Part shown: positions 4,692 to 36,289 of the stretch, piece by piece
Position numbering within the stretch: position 1 is the stretch's first letter
How the letters are laid out: the number at the start of each line of letters is the position of its first letter
NCBI RefSeq assembly: GCF_000194605.1
Contig: NC_015321.1
Location: 1,736,001-1,800,000, forward strand
Source: Fluviicola taffensis DSM 16823
GTDB lineage: Bacteria > Bacteroidota > Bacteroidia > Flavobacteriales_D > Crocinitomicaceae
DNA: 64,000 nt
Direction: 5' to 3'
The notes under the pieces: model-generated
Told to the model about the DNA's origin: nothing
Seen by the model: only the letters and a program-made list of their open reading frames with translations
Databases searched by the model: none
Program-made: the position numbers and the translations under genes

Positions 4692-6602
4692 ATGTCCGAA
4701 CAAATCAATTTCTGTACCGATTTATTCCATCGCGAGCGCTTTGAAACACGCGAAGTAAAAGTTGGAATCACCACAATTGGTGGAAAAAATCCCATTCGGA
4801 TTCAATCCATGACCACAACGGATTCTATGGATACGGCAGGTTCCATCGATCAATCTATACGCATGATTGATGCAGGCTGCGAATTGGTACGCTTAACAGC
4901 ACCATCGAAGAAAGAAGCAGAAAACCTTAGAGTTATCAAAAAAGAGCTCGTTAAACGCGGTTACAACACTCCATTAGTAGCAGACATACATTTTACACCG
5001 AACGCAGCTGAGATTGCCGCAAAACACATCGAAAAAGTACGTGTGAATCCAGGGAATTATGCTGACAAAAAGAAATTCGAAGAAATAGATTACACCGAAG
5101 AAAGTTATCAAGCAGAGTTAATTCGCATCGAAAAGAAATTTACACCACTGGTGTTACTTTGCAAAGAACACCAAACTGCCATGCGAATTGGAACGAATCA
5201 CGGTTCATTATCGGATCGGATCTTAAGCAGATTTGGAGACACACCTGAAGGAATGGTTCAATCAGCAATGGAGTTCATCCACATTTGTCGGAAAAACGAT
5301 TACCACGAATTGGTGATTTCCATGAAAGCGAGTAATACACTTGTAATGGTTCAAGCCTACCGATTACTTGTGAAAACCATGAAAGAACAAGGAATGAATT
5401 ATCCATTGCACCTTGGAGTCACTGAAGCTGGAGATGGAGAAGATGGTAGAATTAAATCAGCAGTTGGAATTGGAGCTTTACTAGAAGATGGTTTAGGAGA
5501 CACGATTCGGGTTTCATTGACAGAAGATCCTGAATTTGAAATTCCAGTGGCACAAAAATTAGCACAAAAATTTCAAGAAAAAAACGAATACAAACTAAAT
5601 TATTCGTCAAAAATAAATTTCGATTATTTTAACCATAATAAACGGATTACTAATTCATTATTAAATATTGGTGGAAGTAATACTTCAATTGTTTTTTCTG
5701 ATTTATCAAAGAAAAACAAAATAGTTTCAACTAATTTTTTCGGATTCGGATATTCTTATTCGGAACCATTAGATAAATGGAATATTTTTGACCAAGCAGC
5801 AGACCTTGTTTATCTTGGAGATCAGACGATTGACTTCGAAATTCCAGGAACACTGCGGATTGTTCAGAACTACGAAGCGTGGAAAACGCACAAAAGATCA
5901 GATGCTTATCCTTTATGTACTCTCCAAGAATACACCAAAAACAAACCAGAAGGAGTTGTCTTTTTACTTGTAGATCTGGATGCAGAAACCGCAGTTTCAG
6001 AGTTGCCAAGCGAACAAATCATCTATGTAGCTGAAACTAAAAAACACCAAAAAACACAGGTTATCCGCAAATTTCAATATGAATTGGCGGAATTAAATAA
6101 TCGCGTTCCCGTTATTTTGAAACTGAATTACGAATTAGAAGAATTGGAAATGCTTCAATTGTATGCAAGTTCAGATGCTGGAATACATTTTATTGATGGT
6201 TTTTCAGACGGAATATGGATTACAGCTCCGCGACCTTTAGTTGATTTGAATAGTTTATCCTTTGGAATTCTGCAGGCCACAAGAACTCGTATTTCCAAAA
6301 CAGAATACATTTCTTGTCCGTCGTGTGGAAGAACCTTATTTGATCTACAGGAAACAACTGGAAAGATTCGTGAACGCACATCTCACTTGAAAGGACTCAA
6401 AATCGGAATCATGGGATGCATCGTAAATGGTCCTGGAGAAATGGCAGATGCAGATTACGGATATGTTGGAACTGGTCCAGGGAAAATAAATTTGTACAAG
6501 GAAAAAACAGTGGTAAAGAAAAATGTTTCAGAAGAAGAAGCGGTTGATGCATTGATTCAATTAATTCGTGACAACGGAGATTGGATTGAGCCGAATAAAT
6601 AA
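4692..6602 (+). CDS. ispG: 4-hydroxy-3-methylbut-2-enyl diphosphate synthase
   Basis: 636 residues. IspG (GcpE) reductively dehydrates methylerythritol cyclodiphosphate to HMBPP in the MEP isoprenoid pathway, using a [4Fe-4S] cluster. The TIM-barrel half is visible at about 1-300 (GGKNPIRIQSMTTTDS, VADIHFTPNAA, KVRVNPGNYA, AVGIGALLEDGLGDTIRVSL). The C-terminal iron-sulfur half has SCPSCGRT and MGCIVNGPGEMADAD, giving the three cluster cysteines. Between them is an extra domain of roughly 240 residues, the A* insertion typical of Bacteroidota, Chlamydia and plants. ATG 4692 (MSEQINFCTDLF) fits the promoter at 4663-4670. Confident call. Confidence 0.97.
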   Translation: MSEQINFCTDLFHRERFETREVKVGITTIGGKNPIRIQSMTTTDSMDTAGSIDQSIRMIDAGCELVRLTAPSKKEAENLRVIKKELVKRGYNTPLVADIHFTPNAAEIAAKHIEKVRVNPGNYADKKKFEEIDYTEESYQAELIRIEKKFTPLVLLCKEHQTAMRIGTNHGSLSDRILSRFGDTPEGMVQSAMEFIHICRKNDYHELVISMKASNTLVMVQAYRLLVKTMKEQGMNYPLHLGVTEAGDGEDGRIKSAVGIGALLEDGLGDTIRVSLTEDPEFEIPVAQKLAQKFQEKNEYKLNYSSKINFDYFNHNKRITNSLLNIGGSNTSIVFSDLSKKNKIVSTNFFGFGYSYSEPLDKWNIFDQAADLVYLGDQTIDFEIPGTLRIVQNYEAWKTHKRSDAYPLCTLQEYTKNKPEGVVFLLVDLDAETAVSELPSEQIIYVAETKKHQKTQVIRKFQYELAELNNRVPVILKLNYELEELEMLQLYASSDAGIHFIDGFSDGIWITAPRPLVDLNSLSFGILQATRTRISKTEYISCPSCGRTLFDLQETTGKIRERTSHLKGLKIGIMGCIVNGPGEMADADYGYVGTGPGKINLYKEKTVVKKNVSEEEAVDALIQLIRDNGDWIEPNK

Positions 6603-6616
6603 AAAATTAATTAGCA

Positions 6617-6881
6617 ATGAAAACAATCTTCTGCCAGCGGATATGCTCAGATAGATTCACTTCACAAACAGATTGAACTAGATTCCACTGAACTAATAAA
6701 AATTCAGTTGAGAATTGATAGTTTAAAGCTCCAACTAGATTCTCTCAAATCAGAATCGGAAAAAACTCAGGTTCTCATCGATACATTAAAACAAGAAAAC
6801 ATCCTCTTGAGAGAATTGATGAAATTATACCTAGAACAAATAAATCGCAAACAGGAAGAAGCATTGAAAGAGGAGGAATAA
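6617..6881 (+). pseudogene. Broken gene for a small secreted coiled-coil protein
   Basis: An ATG at 6617 reads MKTIF, like the start of a signal peptide, but this frame soon stops. The next frame, open from about 6636 to the stop at 6879-6881, reads SGYAQIDSLHKQIELDS and continues as a heptad-like coiled coil with repeated IDSL/LDSL/IDTL and a charged end KEEE. SGYAQ looks like a signal-peptidase site. The simplest reading is that a short deletion in the signal sequence shifted the frame. A sequencing error is an alternative. It follows ispG by 14 bp and could have been co-transcribed with it. Confidence 0.55.
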
Positions 6882-7044
6882 AAAGCAAAAAACATTTTCT
6901 GTCTGGACAATGATGCGAAGCAGTAGATTTCGAAAAAACGAGCAAAAAAGTTAAAAATTTCACTTGATTTCCTGCCGTTTCAGCACCCACCCAAGGTGTT
7001 TTCACATCAAAAAGACAAAAACACCCTTAAAAACGCTAAAAACA

Positions 7045-7920
7045 CTATTTCTTGCGGAAAATATAGATTTGAGAGCTCGACAATCCTTCCTTTGACTTCT
7101 GATTTGACAAAAATCCAATTCTCATCGCTTTTAACATGGAACCACCTTTGTATTTTTCACTCAGCATCGAAACATAGTAGCTATCAAATTTCATTGGAAG
7201 CATTTTTTCAAATTTCAGTCCTTTTGATTCAACTAAAGGAATAATTGACTTCGGAGAAAAATGATAGAGGTGACGTGGAACATCATAAGCTGCCCAAAAC
7301 TCTTTATAATATTGTGCGTCGAAAGAAGTATAATTTGGAACCGCAATAATTAAAACACCACCTTGGTTTACTAAAGAAACTATCTTATCCAAATCTGCCT
7401 GTAAATTGTAAACGTGTTCCAACACGTGCCACATGGAAATAATATCAAACGATTGATTTAACTCATGAAGCAAACTTAAATCTTTTAGTTCAATTCCATT
7501 TTCCGACAAAGCAACTTTTCGAGCATCTTCATCGGGCTCTAAACCTAAAACCGAATACCCTGATTGTTTTGCCTTCGTTAAAAAGTGACCCGTTCCTGCA
7601 CCAATATCTAAGAGTTGTTTTCCATCCGTCAATTGCTTTAATAAAGCAATTTTCTTCTTCAAAGTATAAGAGCGTACCCAGCCATAAACTTTATTTACGA
7701 AACCTTTCTTAGTTGAACTGTGCGAAACATAATCCTCCGACTTGTAATAATCGCTAATGTGATCTATAGTCGGTCGCGGATTTGTAAACAGCAAATGACA
7801 TGAGCTACAAAGATCCAAATTGAAATTTTCCTTAGAAAGAAAATGATCCGTTACAGTCAAATATGTACTTAACGATGATGCTCCACAAGCGGGGCAAATT
7901 GATTGGTTTAAATGTTCCAC
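7045..7920 (-). CDS. Class I SAM-dependent methyltransferase with zinc-ribbon N-terminus
   Basis: 291 residues. An N-terminal four-cysteine knuckle (ICPACGASS and DLCSSCHLLFTNPRP) precedes a Rossmann methyltransferase domain: LLDIGAGTGHFLTKAKQSGY is the SAM-binding motif I (about residues 104-123), GLEPDEDA motif II, and FDIISMWHVLEHVYN motif IV. This layout is found in Methyltransf_23 proteins of surface-polysaccharide and small-molecule pathways; the substrate is not apparent. The only in-frame start is a GTG whose bases lie inside a parS site, 6 bp after the mnmG stop codon, so it is the last gene of the mnmG operon. Confidence 0.85.
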   Translation of the reverse strand: MEHLNQSICPACGASSLSTYLTVTDHFLSKENFNLDLCSSCHLLFTNPRPTIDHISDYYKSEDYVSHSSTKKGFVNKVYGWVRSYTLKKKIALLKQLTDGKQLLDIGAGTGHFLTKAKQSGYSVLGLEPDEDARKVALSENGIELKDLSLLHELNQSFDIISMWHVLEHVYNLQADLDKIVSLVNQGGVLIIAVPNYTSFDAQYYKEFWAAYDVPRHLYHFSPKSIIPLVESKGLKFEKMLPMKFDSYYVSMLSEKYKGGSMLKAMRIGFLSNQKSKEGLSSSQIYIFRKK

Positions 7921-22840: not shown

Positions 22841-24487
22841 ATGAAAACTATTTTGTTTGCTGTTGCACTATTTACCTTTGGATTTATTTCAGCTCAAGAT
22901 AAGTCACCAAAAATTTTACATGTTAAATTCAAAGATGGAACAAAGGTATCTGCTCAGTCGGGTAGTTTATTTTTAGCCAATGAGATTTATCCAAACACAT
23001 CTGGCTTGTCTCAATTTGGACACTGGGAGCCTTTCTATTCCATTTCAAGTGATTTATTACAATCTTACTATGCAAAAGCAAAAGAGCGGCTTAAAAAGAA
23101 TCTTTCTGATCCGAATACTATTTTTGAGTTTCATGTGAATGCTGGAGAAAATGTAGAATTGGTCAAAAAGAAATTAGAAACATTAACTGCACTAAAATAT
23201 GTGAGTGTTCCTCCAAAATTAAGCACACCTGCAGCTCCTAATTTACAGCCATCACAACTTTATTTGTTTGATCAAGATCCTGGAATTCATGTACAGGAAT
23301 TTTGGAATACATACGCTAATCATGGTTCAAATGTGAAGATTTGTGATGTCGAATATATGTTTAATGCAGATCATGAGGACTTACCTAATGTAACAATAAT
23401 AGGACCTGAACCAGAAGACCCAGGCTTTGGTCCAAATCACGGAACTGCCGTTTTGGGTGAAATAGGATCTTTAAATGATGGTATAGGAACTACTGGAATT
23501 ACTTACGAAAGTGATTTCTATTTTGCAGGGGCATATATCAATTTTGAGTATTATTTGGAAGAAGCACTTATTAGTACCTTAACTGAATTGGGTGAAGGAG
23601 ATATTGTCTTGATTGAACAACAAACAATGGCTTTTGATGGAACACCTGATGAAGGGTATGCTCCAGTGGAGTGGTATGAACCATTTTACGATGCTATTCA
23701 ATTAATTTCTGGAAATGGAATTATCGTTGTAGAAGCTGCAGGAAACGGAAACAGAAACTTGGATCATGCAATGTTTTCCACGGATAATTTTGGACATCAT
23801 CCTTTCTTGCAAGAAAATTGGTCGGAAGCTATAATGGTTGGCGCAGGAGCAGTTGGTGTTGATGATTTACCCCGCGCAAAATTGTGGTTTTCAAATTACG
23901 GAAGTAGAATTGATGTTCAAGGAAATGGAGAAGAAGTAGTAACTACTGGCTACGGAACTGCTTATTCAGCTGAAGGACTAAACCGCGAATATTCCAATAG
24001 TTTTGGAGGAACATCCGGAGCTTCGCCAATTGTGACAGGAGCAGTTGCTTTGTTGCAATCATTACACAAACAACATGCAGGATTTCCGTTTGATGTGAAT
24101 TATGTAAGAAACTTATTGATAACAACTGGAAAACCTCAAGTTGAAGGAACGCTTTTCCCGCTTTCGGAAAAAATAGGACCATTGCCAAACGTGTTTGCTG
24201 CAGCAAATTTAATGATGGATGAACTAGGAATTGAAACCTTCGAAAAGGATGCGTTTACTGTTTACCCCAATCCAACTCAAAGTTCTTTTACCATTTATGT
24301 ACCAAGTGAATCTGTTTCTTCTATTCAATTGCGAGATGTTTCTGGAAAGGAAATCCAACTGAATAAGGTAAAAACGATTACAGGATTTGAGGTTACAAAT
24401 TCCACTATTTCAGAGGGAATGTATTATTTATCAATTTATTACAAAGACGGAACAGTTGTTACAAAACCAGTTCAGATAGTTCATTAA
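22841..24487 (+). CDS. Secreted S8 (subtilisin-like) serine protease with T9SS sorting domain
   Basis: 548 residues. Signal peptide MKTILFAVALFTFGFISAQ. The subtilase domain has Asp in KICDVEYMF (about 168), His in NHGTAVLGEIG (about 200), oxyanion Asn in VVEAAGNGNRN (about 305) and Ser in GGTSGASPIVTGA (about 391). The final 80 residues (FTVYPNPTQSSFTIYV and YYLSIYYKDG) are a type A T9SS C-terminal sorting domain, so the mature enzyme is exported through the outer membrane. Substrates are unknown. The GNAT gene follows after 9 bp. Confidence 0.93.
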   Translation: MKTILFAVALFTFGFISAQDKSPKILHVKFKDGTKVSAQSGSLFLANEIYPNTSGLSQFGHWEPFYSISSDLLQSYYAKAKERLKKNLSDPNTIFEFHVNAGENVELVKKKLETLTALKYVSVPPKLSTPAAPNLQPSQLYLFDQDPGIHVQEFWNTYANHGSNVKICDVEYMFNADHEDLPNVTIIGPEPEDPGFGPNHGTAVLGEIGSLNDGIGTTGITYESDFYFAGAYINFEYYLEEALISTLTELGEGDIVLIEQQTMAFDGTPDEGYAPVEWYEPFYDAIQLISGNGIIVVEAAGNGNRNLDHAMFSTDNFGHHPFLQENWSEAIMVGAGAVGVDDLPRAKLWFSNYGSRIDVQGNGEEVVTTGYGTAYSAEGLNREYSNSFGGTSGASPIVTGAVALLQSLHKQHAGFPFDVNYVRNLLITTGKPQVEGTLFPLSEKIGPLPNVFAAANLMMDELGIETFEKDAFTVYPNPTQSSFTIYVPSESVSSIQLRDVSGKEIQLNKVKTITGFEVTNSTISEGMYYLSIYYKDGTVVTKPVQIVH

Positions 24488-30801: not shown

Positions 30802-30832
30802 TTGGAATAACGAAGTTCGATTGTTACATTTG
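30802..30832 (+). promoter_or_regulatory. Promoter of ferritin gene
   Basis: TTG at 30802-30804 and TACATTTG at 30825-30832 with a 20-bp spacer. The ATG is 24 nt further on. Confidence 0.65.
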
Positions 30833-30856
30833 AGAAGACAGAAAAAACACAAAACA

Positions 30857-31381
30857 ATGAATAAGCGAATTGAAGCGGCATTAAATGATCAAATTCAGAA
30901 AGAATCATCTTCCTCTCATTATTACCTAGCAATGGCCTCTTGGGCTGAAACAAAAGGGTTAAATGGTACAGCTAAATTTATGTACACACATTCAGATGAA
31001 GAGCGTTTCCACATGTTGAAGCTGATCAAATTTGTCAATGAACGTGGAGGAGTTGCTATTGTTCCTGCGGTTCCTGAACCAGCGAGAGAATACGATTCTT
31101 TGGAGCGCGTTTTTGAATTGCTGCTCGAACACGAAGTTGGTGTTTCTGAAAGCATTAATGGCGTCGTGGATATTTGTTTGCAGGAAAAGGATTATTCAAC
31201 ACACAATTTTATGCAATGGTATGTTTCCGAGCAATTGGAAGAGGAGGCTTTGGCTCGCAGTATCTTGGATAAATTGAGGTTGATTGGCGGAGATAAAGGT
31301 GGTCTTTATTTGTTTGATCGTGATATGGAAACTGCTGCAGCCAATGCTGTAAAAGCAGCAAGCACAGCTCAAAAGGCATAG
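30857..31381 (+). CDS. Ferritin
   Basis: 174 residues from ATG 30857; an upstream in-frame start would lie before the promoter element. The non-haem ferritin four-helix bundle is clear, with ferroxidase ligands in QIQKESSSSHYYLAMA (Glu17), the SDEERFHML block (Glu50, His53) and LLEHEVGVSESI (Glu94 region), and NFMQWYVSEQLEEEALARSILD for the last ligands. It stores iron in 24-mers in the cytosol and protects against iron-driven oxidation. Length and helices fit FtnA rather than Dps or bacterioferritin. Confidence 0.94.
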   Translation: MNKRIEAALNDQIQKESSSSHYYLAMASWAETKGLNGTAKFMYTHSDEERFHMLKLIKFVNERGGVAIVPAVPEPAREYDSLERVFELLLEHEVGVSESINGVVDICLQEKDYSTHNFMQWYVSEQLEEEALARSILDKLRLIGGDKGGLYLFDRDMETAAANAVKAASTAQKA

Positions 31382-31445
31382 AACCCTAATATTGAAACTT
31401 TTTCAGCAATTTATTCGTTGAATAAACGAATTGAAAGTGAAACTT

Positions 31446-34400
31446 ATGCTCGTTCGATTACTAGGAATTGGAGCGGTTATTGCGTTTACTACTACTAGCG
31501 CGATTAGTCAAGTCTCGTATCGTTTTAGAAACTTTTCTATTAACGATGGACTCTCACAGAGTTCTGTGACGACTATTGTACAAGATAATGTGGGGACGCT
31601 TTGGCTGGGAACACAAGACGGATTAAATCGGTTTGATGGACAACAGTTTGAAGTCTTCACTTCTGATGATACTCCAGGGCTTGCTAGTTCCTATATTCAT
31701 TGTGGCTTAAAAGACCAGTTTGGCGAGTTGTGGTTTGGAACTGCTGATGGAGTTTCGGTGTATAACCCCAAAAAAGAAACATTTCGCTCGATTCTTTCTT
31801 CAGATGATAAAAACCTCTCCATTGAAAGTGTTTCGGAGGAAGCGAATGGAAATATTTGGTTGGGATCATCCACTTATGGATTGGCAAAGTACGATCGGAA
31901 GACAAAAAAAGTCTCTTTTTTAACAGCGACAATCCCTTCAAAAAGAATTCACTATATCAAGTTTGTCACAAAGAAAGAGCTAATTGTTTCTTTCGAGGAT
32001 GCTGGTGTGTATATCTACAACATTGAATCGAAAATCTGGAAACAATTATCCATTTCAAAAGGTCACAAAGCATGGTTGGTTTCAGATGTAGAACCTTTTT
32101 CTGAAAACAGTTACGTTTTTTCTACCAATCAAGGTTTGTGGCTGTTCGATTCTCAAACCCACAAGTTATTTCCGTTTTTAAAATTCATTGGAAAAGATTA
32201 CGGAATTGATGAGTTTTCGGATGTTTATGTAAAATCGACCAGCGAATTTTATATTGCCACAGTTAATAATGGATTGATTAGTGTCAATAACACCAATGAA
32301 GGATACAGAATCACTTTCAGCAAGAAAGACATTTTCCAAAAAAACGGAATTTTATTCAATGAGATAAATGAGTTGTTTTGTGATGAAAATGGAACAATTT
32401 GGGTTGGAACGCTGCGCGGTTTAAGTGGATTTAACCCGAAAAATGATTCGTTTTTTGGAGTTGGACCGTCGTCTAATTTGAGCCTCGGACTTCCTTCAGA
32501 AAGCGTTTGGGGATTTGCAGAGTCGAAAGATTTATCTAAGGTTTACATTGCCACAGACTTTGCTGTTTCTGAATTGAATCGAAAAACAGGAACGTTTAAG
32601 CACTATTATATCTCCAAAGCTCAAGATGTTAACGACAATAGCATTGTGTCTATTCACTATCTCACAGATGAACATTTTTTGATCGGAGCCAATGATGGTT
32701 TATATGATTTAAAAATTAAAAATGGAACGGGAGTTTATCACAAAGTTGTTTACAAAGGAATTGACAATCCATTGATTTTTCAAAGATTGTACAAGATAAC
32801 TCCCTACAAAGAATCTCAATTTTTCATTGCCACAAAGGGCGGTGTTTTGCTGTATAATCAAAAAACAGGCGAATTTACTCCGTTTGTCAATAATCCAAAA
32901 AAGCCAAAAACAACCATTGGAGCAGGAGTTTGTAGGGTTTCTTATAAAGGGTTAAACGACACGTATTATTTTGCTACAGGCGTTGGAGGAATTAATTTGC
33001 TCACCTTAGATTCTCAAGGAAAAGAACAGATAGTTCCTTATGAATTCAACAAGTCTATTTTAAAAGCAAGTAGAGATGTTATTTCAACAATCTATCAAGA
33101 AAATGAAACAACTTTGTGGTTGGGATCCTCAGGATCTGGTTTATTGAAGCTGAATTTAAAAACAGGAAAGGTTGTCGCTTATACCCGAAAGCAAGGGTTG
33201 CCCAATAATTTTGTGTACGGAATTTTACCAGATGAACGTGGAAATTTATGGTTGAGTACCAATAAGGGTTTGGCACGATTTAACACAAATGAAGAACGTT
33301 GTACGAACTATTCAGAGGTGAATGGATTAATGAGTAACGAATTCAACACGGGTGCTTACCTGCTTTCAAAAACGGGTGAAATGTATTTTGGAGGTATTGA
33401 AGGGTATAATTTCTTCAACCCCAAAAACCTACAAGAACAAAGAGATAAAATCTATGTAAACTTCTTAAAGTTTCGATTTGATGACCGTTGGTTGAAACCG
33501 GGTGATTCTGATGCGCCTTTTAAAGAATCATTCTCGTCTTTGTCTGATATAAAATTGGGATACGATGAGCGAAGTTTCACGATTCGTTTCAAGCCTACGG
33601 ATATCATTAATCGCGAGTTACTGCAATTCAAATACGAATTAGTTGGTTTGGATGAAGGTTCTGTATTTTTGGGTTCTTCTAGTGAGATTCACTTCACATC
33701 ACTGTCTCCAGGTTCTTATGTACTCAAAATTTATGTAAGAAGAGTAGATGGTGATTGGATTCAAGCAACTTCGGAAATGAACATCGAAGTCGCATCTCCT
33801 TTTTGGTGGAAATGGTGGTTTTGGGTGATTGTTTTAGTGGTTTTAACCATGCTAATCCTTCTTTTTATTCAATCCCGAATAAACTTGGCGCGCAGAGATC
33901 AAGTACGTTTGGAAATAAAGATTGTGGAGAGAACGAAGGAAATTCGGGCGCAAAACATGAAGATTGAATCTCAGAAAAAGGTCATAGAAAAGGAGAAGAC
34001 GAAAGTAGAAGAACAAAGTCGTTTGCTTCAAATAGAGAAAGATAAAACGGAGAATTTGTTGAGAAACATGATTCCTGAATCTACTGCCGAAGAATTGAAA
34101 ACGAAAGGTCGTGCTTCAGCGCGAGCTTATAAAACAGTTTCTGTATTGTTTACCGATTTTGTGGGTTTCACAAAAATTGCTGAAGGAATGAAACCAACCG
34201 ATTTGGTGAATAAATTGGATGTTTATTTTAGAAAGTTTGATGAAATCATTGTAAAAAACAACTTAGAGAAAATCAAAACAATTGGCGATGCATACATGTG
34301 TGCAGGTGGTGTTCCAGTTCGAAACAATACCAATCCAATTGATGCTGTTTTAGCGGCTCTTCAAATTCAGGAATACATGACGAATTTGAAGACTGAAGGA

Positions 34401-35354
34401 TTGAAAACAGGTTCTGAGTTTTGGGAACTGAGATTGGGAATCAACACGGGTGAAGTAACAGCAGGAGTAATTGGTTCTGAACGCTTGGCATATGATATTT
34501 GGGGAGCAACTGTAAATCAGGCTCAACGAATGGAAATGATGGGAGAACCAGGAAGAGTAACCATTTCAGGTTCCACATTCAAACTCATTGAGCCTTATTT
34601 TGAATGTACTTACCGAGGAAAGGTAAAGACAAAAAGCAAAGGCTTGATCGAAATGTTTACTGTAGAGCGGATCAAACCAGAACTGTCTATCAATGGAGAA
34701 GGGTTATATCCCAATGATCGTTTCCAACAAATCGTAAACCTCCATTTATACAGTAGTATTAATTACTACAAAGCAGAGCGTCACATTATGAGAGTGCTGG
34801 AGAAAGGCTTGTCGCCAATGCTACATTATCATAGTATTGAGCACACCAAAGATGTAGTTCGTGCTGTAGAACGTTATGCGCTCTTGGAAGGGGTTACCGA
34901 TGAGGGCTTGTTCCTATTGAAATCTGCGGCAACCTATCACGATGCTGGATTTGTTGAAATCTATGAAAAGAATGAGCCGGTAGGGGCAAGAATGGCTGAA
35001 GAAATTTTGCCGAAATACGGGTATTCAGAGCAACACATTGCTCAAATTAAAGAGCTTATTTTCGTTACCCAAATTCCGCATCAACCGAAAAACAAATTGG
35101 AGCAAATTATTTGTGATGCCGATTTGGATTATTTAGGAAGAGACGATTTCCACGAGATTGCAGATCGTCTGAGAAGAGAATTGCGAGAACATGGTAAAAT
35201 AGATAGTGACCGACAATGGGATAATATGCAGGTGTTTTTCTTGAATATGCACAAGTACTTTACGCCGACTGCCATTGCTAGTCGTCAGGCCAAGAAGATG
35301 AAAAACCTGAAAGAGGTTGAAGAGCGCTTAGCCCGTGATGAGTATAAAGATTAA
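31446..35354 (+). CDS. Propeller sensor - adenylate cyclase - HD phosphohydrolase fusion
   Basis: 1302 residues from ATG 31446 (a TTG 15 bp earlier is possible). Order: signal peptide (about 1-25); two-component-regulator beta-propeller repeats (LWLGTQDGLNRFDG, LWFGTADGVSVYN, IWLGSSTYGLAKYD, IWVGTLRGLSGFN, LWLGSSGSGLLKLN); Y_Y_Y domain ending near 785; one membrane helix about 792-811; coiled coil to about 870; class III cyclase about 890-1070; HD domain about 1125-1265. The cyclase has both metal aspartates (LFTDFVGFT, IGDAYM), the adenine-selecting Lys (EKIKTIGD) and Asp (YDIWGATVNQAQRME), and the transition-state Asn and Arg, so it should make cAMP. The HD domain has His in HSIEHTKDV, HD in TYHDAGF and Asp in CDADLDYLG. 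A histidine kinase, usual in such propeller proteins, is absent. Confidence 0.9.
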   Translation: MLVRLLGIGAVIAFTTTSAISQVSYRFRNFSINDGLSQSSVTTIVQDNVGTLWLGTQDGLNRFDGQQFEVFTSDDTPGLASSYIHCGLKDQFGELWFGTADGVSVYNPKKETFRSILSSDDKNLSIESVSEEANGNIWLGSSTYGLAKYDRKTKKVSFLTATIPSKRIHYIKFVTKKELIVSFEDAGVYIYNIESKIWKQLSISKGHKAWLVSDVEPFSENSYVFSTNQGLWLFDSQTHKLFPFLKFIGKDYGIDEFSDVYVKSTSEFYIATVNNGLISVNNTNEGYRITFSKKDIFQKNGILFNEINELFCDENGTIWVGTLRGLSGFNPKNDSFFGVGPSSNLSLGLPSESVWGFAESKDLSKVYIATDFAVSELNRKTGTFKHYYISKAQDVNDNSIVSIHYLTDEHFLIGANDGLYDLKIKNGTGVYHKVVYKGIDNPLIFQRLYKITPYKESQFFIATKGGVLLYNQKTGEFTPFVNNPKKPKTTIGAGVCRVSYKGLNDTYYFATGVGGINLLTLDSQGKEQIVPYEFNKSILKASRDVISTIYQENETTLWLGSSGSGLLKLNLKTGKVVAYTRKQGLPNNFVYGILPDERGNLWLSTNKGLARFNTNEERCTNYSEVNGLMSNEFNTGAYLLSKTGEMYFGGIEGYNFFNPKNLQEQRDKIYVNFLKFRFDDRWLKPGDSDAPFKESFSSLSDIKLGYDERSFTIRFKPTDIINRELLQFKYELVGLDEGSVFLGSSSEIHFTSLSPGSYVLKIYVRRVDGDWIQATSEMNIEVASPFWWKWWFWVIVLVVLTMLILLFIQSRINLARRDQVRLEIKIVERTKEIRAQNMKIESQKKVIEKEKTKVEEQSRLLQIEKDKTENLLRNMIPESTAEELKTKGRASARAYKTVSVLFTDFVGFTKIAEGMKPTDLVNKLDVYFRKFDEIIVKNNLEKIKTIGDAYMCAGGVPVRNNTNPIDAVLAALQIQEYMTNLKTEGLKTGSEFWELRLGINTGEVTAGVIGSERLAYDIWGATVNQAQRMEMMGEPGRVTISGSTFKLIEPYFECTYRGKVKTKSKGLIEMFTVERIKPELSINGEGLYPNDRFQQIVNLHLYSSINYYKAERHIMRVLEKGLSPMLHYHSIEHTKDVVRAVERYALLEGVTDEGLFLLKSAATYHDAGFVEIYEKNEPVGARMAEEILPKYGYSEQHIAQIKELIFVTQIPHQPKNKLEQIICDADLDYLGRDDFHEIADRLRRELREHGKIDSDRQWDNMQVFFLNMHKYFTPTAIASRQAKKMKNLKEVEERLARDEYKD

Positions 35355-35413: not shown

Positions 35414-36232
35414 TTAACTGAACAAGACGCTTCCACCGTATTTTCCAACTACTGGATTTACAATCAACGTAGGGATTTGAGCATCATTGGTAAGAATATA
35501 TTGTTCGTGATTTGCTGTGATAGCTCCAAGCATGTTATTGCGATTTAAGTTCATGATAGCAATTAAATCGGCGTCTAATGAAACCGCATGTTTTACCACT
35601 TCTTTGTCGAAACCACCTGTTGGAACCACTTTGGTTGTTACATCAATTCCTCTTTCGTGGAAAAATTTCACCGCAAATTGAATATTTGCTTTTACTTGAT
35701 GACGTAAAAACTCGTCTGTTTCATCCGGTGTAATAACATGAACACGAGACTTAAAGTAAGTAGCGATATTTGCCACATAAGCCAACTTTTGCTTAGTCTC
35801 TTTGTTTAAATCTAATGGAACTACAATATCATCATACCCATTTTCTTTAATTCCTTTTTCTTGAACTACAATAAATGGAACAGTAGAATGTGTAATCACT
35901 TTTAAAGCATAGCTTCCGGTAAGATGTTGCCATCCTGTTTGACCATGAGTACCCATAAAAATCAATTCTGCATGATTCTCAGAAGCAAAATCACCAATAT
36001 CATCAAAAATATTTCCTACTCGAATGAACGGTGTAATTTTTATATGTTCTTTATGTTGTTCAACGACTGCGTTTAGTTTTTCCTCAGCTTCACCAATCAA
36101 TTTTTCTTTTGCAACTACGTGAAGCAATAAAATTTCTGCACCTGTAGTCTTGGCAGTATTAATTGCATGATTCAGAGCATTTTCAGCAACAGCCGTAAAA
36201 TCATGGGGAACAATAATGGTCTTTTTTTCCAT
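35414..36232 (-). CDS. Universal stress protein, tandem UspA domains
   Basis: 272 residues from ATG 36232 (MEKKTIIVPHDFTAVAENAL). Two UspA domains in tandem: the first to about 140 ends with the ATP-binding pattern FMGTHGQTGWQHLTGSYALKVITHS (core GTHGQTGWQHLTGS), the second (DDIVVPLDLNKETKQKL) has a degenerate loop (NNMLGAITANHEQYIL). Such proteins act in the cytosol under stress; mechanism unclear. The reading frame extends upstream past the minus-strand promoter at 36263-36289, which supports this start. Confidence 0.92.
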   Translation of the reverse strand: MEKKTIIVPHDFTAVAENALNHAINTAKTTGAEILLLHVVAKEKLIGEAEEKLNAVVEQHKEHIKITPFIRVGNIFDDIGDFASENHAELIFMGTHGQTGWQHLTGSYALKVITHSTVPFIVVQEKGIKENGYDDIVVPLDLNKETKQKLAYVANIATYFKSRVHVITPDETDEFLRHQVKANIQFAVKFFHERGIDVTTKVVPTGGFDKEVVKHAVSLDADLIAIMNLNRNNMLGAITANHEQYILTNDAQIPTLIVNPVVGKYGGSVLFS

Positions 36233-36262
36233 AAGGAGCAATTGTGGGTTTTTATAGTAGTG

Positions 36263-36289
36263 CAAATGTAATCAAAGCATTAAAAGCAA
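36263..36289 (-). promoter_or_regulatory. Promoter of UspA gene
   Basis: On the minus strand TTG (36287-36289), 16-bp spacer, TACATTTG (36263-36270), 30 nt before the ATG. Confidence 0.5.

Follow-up and report, generated by a model that had tools for sequence, protein, structure and literature searches.

A periplasmic sensor, class III cyclase and HD domain protein of Fluviicola taffensis, a candidate writer and eraser of cyclic nucleotides

Class III nucleotidyl cyclases and HD-fold phosphodiesterases reside on one chain in CAPE (combined adenylyl cyclase with phosphodiesterase), found in Marchantia and other streptophytes, both activities having been shown for MpCAPE (PMC5159850, PMC8115329). 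The same combination, with a phosphodiesterase which is here predicted, is found in a 1302-residue protein encoded at positions 31446-35354 (forward strand) of a 64,000-nucleotide stretch of Fluviicola taffensis DSM 16823 DNA (NC_015321.1, 1,736,001 to 1,800,000; henceforth the window, to which coordinates refer unless a locus is named). CAPE is a plant protein with an N-terminal phosphodiesterase of class I, whereas the F. taffensis protein is bacterial, has a periplasmic sensor attached, and carries at the C-terminus an HD domain of about 200 residues which is not PF00233. Domain order and type of HD thus set the protein apart from the CAPE family, and the likeness is one of working. A 2016 survey lists Pfam architectures made up by cyclase and phosphohydrolase (PF01966) domains, and a pair of neighbouring cyclase-like and PF01966 genes, HSW_3800/HSW_3799 (PMC4886424). 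As here, the bacterial association was seen computationally; the passages of the survey considered here cover the domain combination and the one neighbour pair, and no eraser role, sensor diversity, reciprocal decay, or links to cyclic-nucleotide-binding (CNB) domains, universal stress proteins (USPs) and PycTM. No characterised bacterial cyclase-HD case was found in the open-access literature, most subscription journals being outside this coverage.

Other described systems share single parts with the protein. Periplasmic sensor, transmembrane helix and coiled coil are those of hybrid two-component systems (Reg_prop-Y_Y_Y-histidine kinase). Unlike in these, Pfam detects no HisKA, HATPase_c or receiver domain in the 1302 residues, which are not a hybrid two-component protein; the output is the cyclase-HD pair, and no polysaccharide locus adjoins the gene. 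The first-pass annotation took a propeller feeding a cyclase as exceptional, but propeller-cyclases devoid of HD are common in Bacteroidota. HD fold and H-x3-H plus HD motif are shared with class I phosphodiesterases (PDE4, PDE5, PDE9; PF00233), which are distant profile and fold matches; the domain is in contrast smaller, and lacks a PF00233 match. In PDE4 the spacing to the later metal ligand is different. The closest solved relatives are the HD hydrolases YedJ, YpgQ and 2pq7 (E 1e-9 to 1e-3), for which we know of no tie to cyclases or cyclic nucleoside monophosphate (cNMP) binding domains. Some Pycsar PycTM effectors bear an N-terminal HD of the same family (L074, L078); unlike Pycsar, the F. 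taffensis genome has no PycTM, and the cyclase is ATP-type by its residues.

We propose, with a probability of about 0.6, that the protein is a transmembrane writer-eraser of cyclic nucleotides, the cyclase writing cAMP and the HD domain hydrolysing it. A signal would be sensed by the periplasmic propeller/Y_Y_Y part and relayed through transmembrane helix and coiled coil to a dimer, whose state would change. The cyclase would convert ATP to cAMP, and the C-terminal HD would hydrolyse the cyclic mononucleotide as a bacterial, class-I-like 3',5'-cNMP phosphodiesterase, the sensor deciding how synthesis and breakdown are balanced, in a way resembling GGDEF-EAL proteins and c-di-GMP. If this is true, the protein would be a bacterial one-chain counterpart of plant CAPE and GGDEF-EAL proteins. 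A broader claim, on which we would bet neither way, is that HD founds a widespread, undescribed Bacteroidota family of cyclic-mononucleotide phosphodiesterases, modular with cyclases (writer-eraser), with CNB and PycTM outputs (eraser-reader) and with USPs, and split in Bacteroidales into a writer with a dead HD and an adjacent eraser with a decayed cyclase. Bacteroidota have many class III cyclases; removal of their cyclic nucleotides might fall to the HD domains, a candidate set of erasers associated with writers, readers and USPs, and many unnamed HD proteins would gain a specific annotation hypothesis. The protein is real and conserved, and the HD domain is the new part; the mechanism is a proposal.

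The open reading frame starts with ATG at 31446, has zero internal stops, and is preceded by an in-frame TTG at 31431. Signal peptide (residues 1-21; 31446-31508) and single transmembrane helix (approximately residues 788-812; 33807-33881; peak 2.81), both recognized by hydropathy, flank the periplasmic Reg_prop beta-propeller (approximately residues 25-690; 31518-33515; PF07494, 7.9e-22) and the Y_Y_Y domain (residues 724-782; 33615-33791; PF07495, 4.5e-11), so that all parts of a Reg_prop/Y_Y_Y periplasmic sensor are present. Signalling coiled coil and cyclase transducer, marked by a sub-threshold HNOBA match, span residues 836-884 (33951-34097). All these features lie on the forward strand, and the overall architecture is backed by Pfam and by ortholog frames of about 1300 residues.

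Thirty of the 35 further genomes from the same bacterial family encode a one-frame protein of 1235-1325 residues, and the fusion is therefore genuine, as annotated, and not due to chance. Two more genomes (G029, G034) keep the transmembrane-cyclase-HD part alone, the propeller being gone; in G004 and G015 the gene is interrupted by contig ends, and G033 is only 59% complete. An assembly artefact, which had been envisaged should the gene be split in all close relatives, is ruled out by the long frames. The propeller is the least conserved part, 26-49% identical to orthologs outside the closest relatives, cyclase plus HD being 55-83% identical; in more distant orthologs HD is mostly conserved as much as the cyclase or more (e.g. 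71% vs. 60%). A fast-diverging sensor joined to a steady cyclase and HD is as expected for a changing input to a putatively fixed output. A glycan, suggested earlier as ligand, is not supported, the stretch read having no polysaccharide-utilisation genes and F. taffensis, a gliding freshwater bacterium, being by description incapable of carbohydrate use (PMC3236050).

The class III cyclase (residues 892-1074; 34119-34667, forward strand; PF00211, Guanylate_cyc, 9.3e-46, with relatives in the PDB) has a complete set of residues, namely the two metal residues Asp904 and Asp948, the substrate-selecting, ATP-type pair Lys944/Asp1017, and the transition-state pair Asn1024 and Arg1028. D904, K944, D948, D1017, N1024 and R1028 are invariant across 24 aligned cyclase-HD sequences, in agreement with the first-pass annotation. 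A Lys/Asp pair denotes ATP by established residue rules, and ATP is the predicted substrate. A second cyclase of the same family, a receiver-cyclase-HD protein, is encoded in the F. taffensis genome (G000:C1:4480945-4482150).

The HD domain (residues 1095-1302; 34728-35351, forward strand) was defined by alignment, AlphaFold, Foldseek, profile search and motif census. PF01966 is not called in the protein even at E<=10, leaving the last 210 residues or so with no Pfam call; many fused or stand-alone homologues exceed the PF01966 cut-off over the same region. His1129, His1133, His1165-Asp1166, Glu1177, Asp1224 and Asp1226 are invariant in a 40-member alignment, corresponding to a motif Y-H-x3-H-T ... 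HD ... E ... D-A-D-x4-G. The H...HD...D metal motif of the HD superfamily, reported earlier as intact, is therefore present, and by the motif census 143 of 150 homologues retain the metal residues. AlphaFold predicts an all-helical, confident fold (pLDDT 95.7, and 92.8 for cyclase and HD together). Single-sequence phmmer against the PDB returns noise (Exuperantia, troponin), and an alignment profile is required. The best profile matches are the HD hydrolases 2pq7 (1e-9), YedJ (1e-6) and YpgQ (1e-3), followed by PDE5, PDE9, class 1 PDEB1, PDE10 and PDE4 at 0.0035-0.25; Foldseek yields a similar mix of 2pq7, YpgQ and class I phosphodiesterases. RelA/SpoT is absent from the 60 PDB profile matches listed, and no RSH family occurs in Pfam or NCBIfam results for the protein, which thus falls outside the RelA/SpoT group and gives no ground for the (p)ppGpp hydrolysis once suggested. 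PF00233 is not among the Pfam matches listed for the HD domain (E<=10), and since the similarity to class I phosphodiesterases is a distant one of profile and fold, the domain is not filed in that class, but may work like one of its members. The choice of a substrate hinges on context, and cyclases, cNMP-binding domains and PycTM suggest a cyclic nucleotide.

Members of the HD family were detected in 188 of 296 Bacteroidia-class genomes (E<=1e-30), and in four cyclic-nucleotide contexts: fused to a cyclase, next to a cyclase, fused to a cNMP_binding domain, and fused to PycTM. Cyclase-HD fusions carry propeller, receiver, TPR, GAF-like, Y_Y_Y, transmembrane-only or no sensor, some of these names being read by eye from sequence. 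Non-fused HD genes are within 600 bp of a cyclase in 13 of 51 cases, some on the same strand at 2-98 bp. A stand-alone HD gene also lies beside a cyclase in Taibaiella koreensis (L114; 19 bp) and in a Rufibacter. Chance would account for about 1% (our own estimate, at some ten cyclases per 4 Mb genome), and the 13 adjacencies are not 13 independent events as a consequence of shared ancestry, two families contributing three loci each. HD-cNMP_binding-SpoIIE phosphatase and HD-cNMP_binding-histidine kinase-receiver proteins occur at L174, L182, L183 and L189, and their cNMP_binding domains feature canonical phosphate cassettes (FGE..RSA) of a cNMP-binding type. In the PycTM fusions the HD is at the N-terminus. 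On a tree of 149 HD domains the fused state must change about nine times, one of the changes being a secondary split (L082/L083) within the propeller clade. Fusions and neighbours together suggest that HD is tied to cyclic mononucleotides. The earlier idea that one polypeptide makes and breaks a messenger is favoured by this comparative evidence, both enzyme activities being predicted ones.

Further variation was observed around the family. L187 (2887-5466) and L188 (5099-7741) encode proteins of 859-880 residues that combine TPR repeats with an N-terminus resembling TIR (by eye) and, at the C-terminus, a family HD; the L188 gene is 14 bp from a receiver-cyclase gene. At L185, L186 and L193 a family HD is fused to a YitT/DUF2179 membrane protein (Pfam-confirmed in L185 only), adjoining cyclase genes. 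In two families the neighbour of a cyclase-HD or HD gene encodes a HAMP-type membrane protein ending, as judged by eye, in a SpoIIE-like phosphatase (L054, 2266-4095; L082, 4521-6290).

Sites decay in a reciprocal manner. Both sites are complete in 62 of the 77 fused proteins, and one protein is truncated; HD is broken in seven, all with a complete cyclase, cyclase residues are lost in seven others, all with a complete HD, and none has both sites broken. At the Bacteroidales-type loci L120, L123 and L137, live-HD and dead-HD cyclase proteins are encoded about 3 kb apart (5884-7287 and 10293-12152 in L120), with one propeller-like and one RdgB-like gene in between. All six scored cyclase residues persist in the HD-live partner, from which the DxWG (changed to DIKG) and AGxxG motifs are lost; the other partner has an intact cyclase, and has lost HD ligands. 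At L141 the HD-live partner has an Asn to His change, and its neighbour is interrupted by the contig end. The paired loci look like the product of one bifunctional ancestor split into a writer and an eraser, which would not in itself prove the reaction.

USP genes are a further companion, being found within 2 kb of 43 of 150 HD-containing genes (24 of 77 fused, 19 of 73 other), often overlapping or at 0-64 bp on the same strand. Beside fused genes they are mostly convergent or divergent, where HD stands alone often overlapping and on the same strand. Only 3 of 64 cyclase-only genes have a USP nearby, and each of the three loci also holds an HD gene; USPs therefore follow HD, not the cyclase. 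A USP is a possible nucleotide sponge or receptor.

Several data weigh against a cyclic-nucleotide eraser. Among solved structures, those closest to the domain belong to general HD hydrolases, and PF00233 is not matched; Foldseek E-values are weak (at least 3.5e-3), and redundancy of PDE4D in the PDB inflates the count of class I phosphodiesterases. Association is indicative of a shared pathway, not of a reaction, and as only about 0.6 proteins with both sites broken would be expected, finding none carries no significance by count alone. As none of its CNB-domain proteins has a canonical cassette, cAMP use in F. taffensis finds no independent support. Profile searches of the F. taffensis genome found no CpdA-type or class II phosphodiesterase; another, unrelated metallophosphatase could nevertheless be the eraser.

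The foremost alternative, unlikely in our opinion, places HD with YedJ and YpgQ as a nucleotide pyrophosphohydrolase or phosphatase, its substrate being not a cyclic nucleotide but NTPs, pyrophosphate or some other nucleotide; it might, for example, tune substrate or product of the cyclase. YpgQ is reported to act on nucleotide pyrophosphates, and the top sequence and structure matches, 2pq7, YedJ and YpgQ, are in line with such a function, as is the frequency of USPs next to HD, these proteins often binding ATP. Fusions to PycTM and to cNMP-binding domains with canonical cassettes are in contrast unexpected for a housekeeping pyrophosphatase, and class I phosphodiesterases come next in the profile search.

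Less probable still, HD might mainly bind a cyclic nucleotide and regulate the cyclase allosterically, in the manner of a product sensor, itself catalysing little or nothing. The constant order and spacing of HD and cyclase in fused proteins, and a fold kept in the seven in which metal residues are lost, would fit this role, which is hard to reconcile with the retention of those residues in nearly all homologues, and with HD genes standing alone or fused to other outputs.

The writer-eraser logic may also hold with a nucleotide other than cAMP, either cGMP or a Pycsar-like pyrimidine cNMP, and to this we assign a similarly small chance. The HD-PycTM fusions and the weak PADLOC matches of the cyclase to PycC point that way, as do the receptors. 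A CRP-like receptor had been named as a check; the genome encodes 15 CNB-domain proteins, all inspected, and none carries a canonical phosphate cassette (FGE..R(S/T)A). The receptor may be a non-canonical CRP-like protein, the neighbouring USP, or another. Against a different nucleotide, Lys944/Asp1017 is the ATP-type pair, PycTM is missing, and weak PycC matches are given by any class III cyclase. A role in Pycsar-like defence, evoked by the HD-PycTM relatives, is most improbable, the locus being stable through the family among housekeeping neighbours such as ferritin and USP, with no adjoining effector and no PycTM in the genome, hence outside Pycsar.

The putative writer-eraser gene is flanked in the order RNase R, ferritin, cyclase-HD gene, USP, GH3, EamA, FBPase, an order which erodes with distance; in the other genomes of the family the one-frame gene often sits between those for ferritin and a USP. 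The ferritin gene (30821-31381, forward strand; PF00210), immediately upstream, is a family neighbour conserved by synteny, and the convergent USP gene (35414-36265, reverse strand; PF00582) is a conserved neighbour of the HD family. A subtilase encoded in the window at 22841-24487 bears a sorting tail for type IX secretion.

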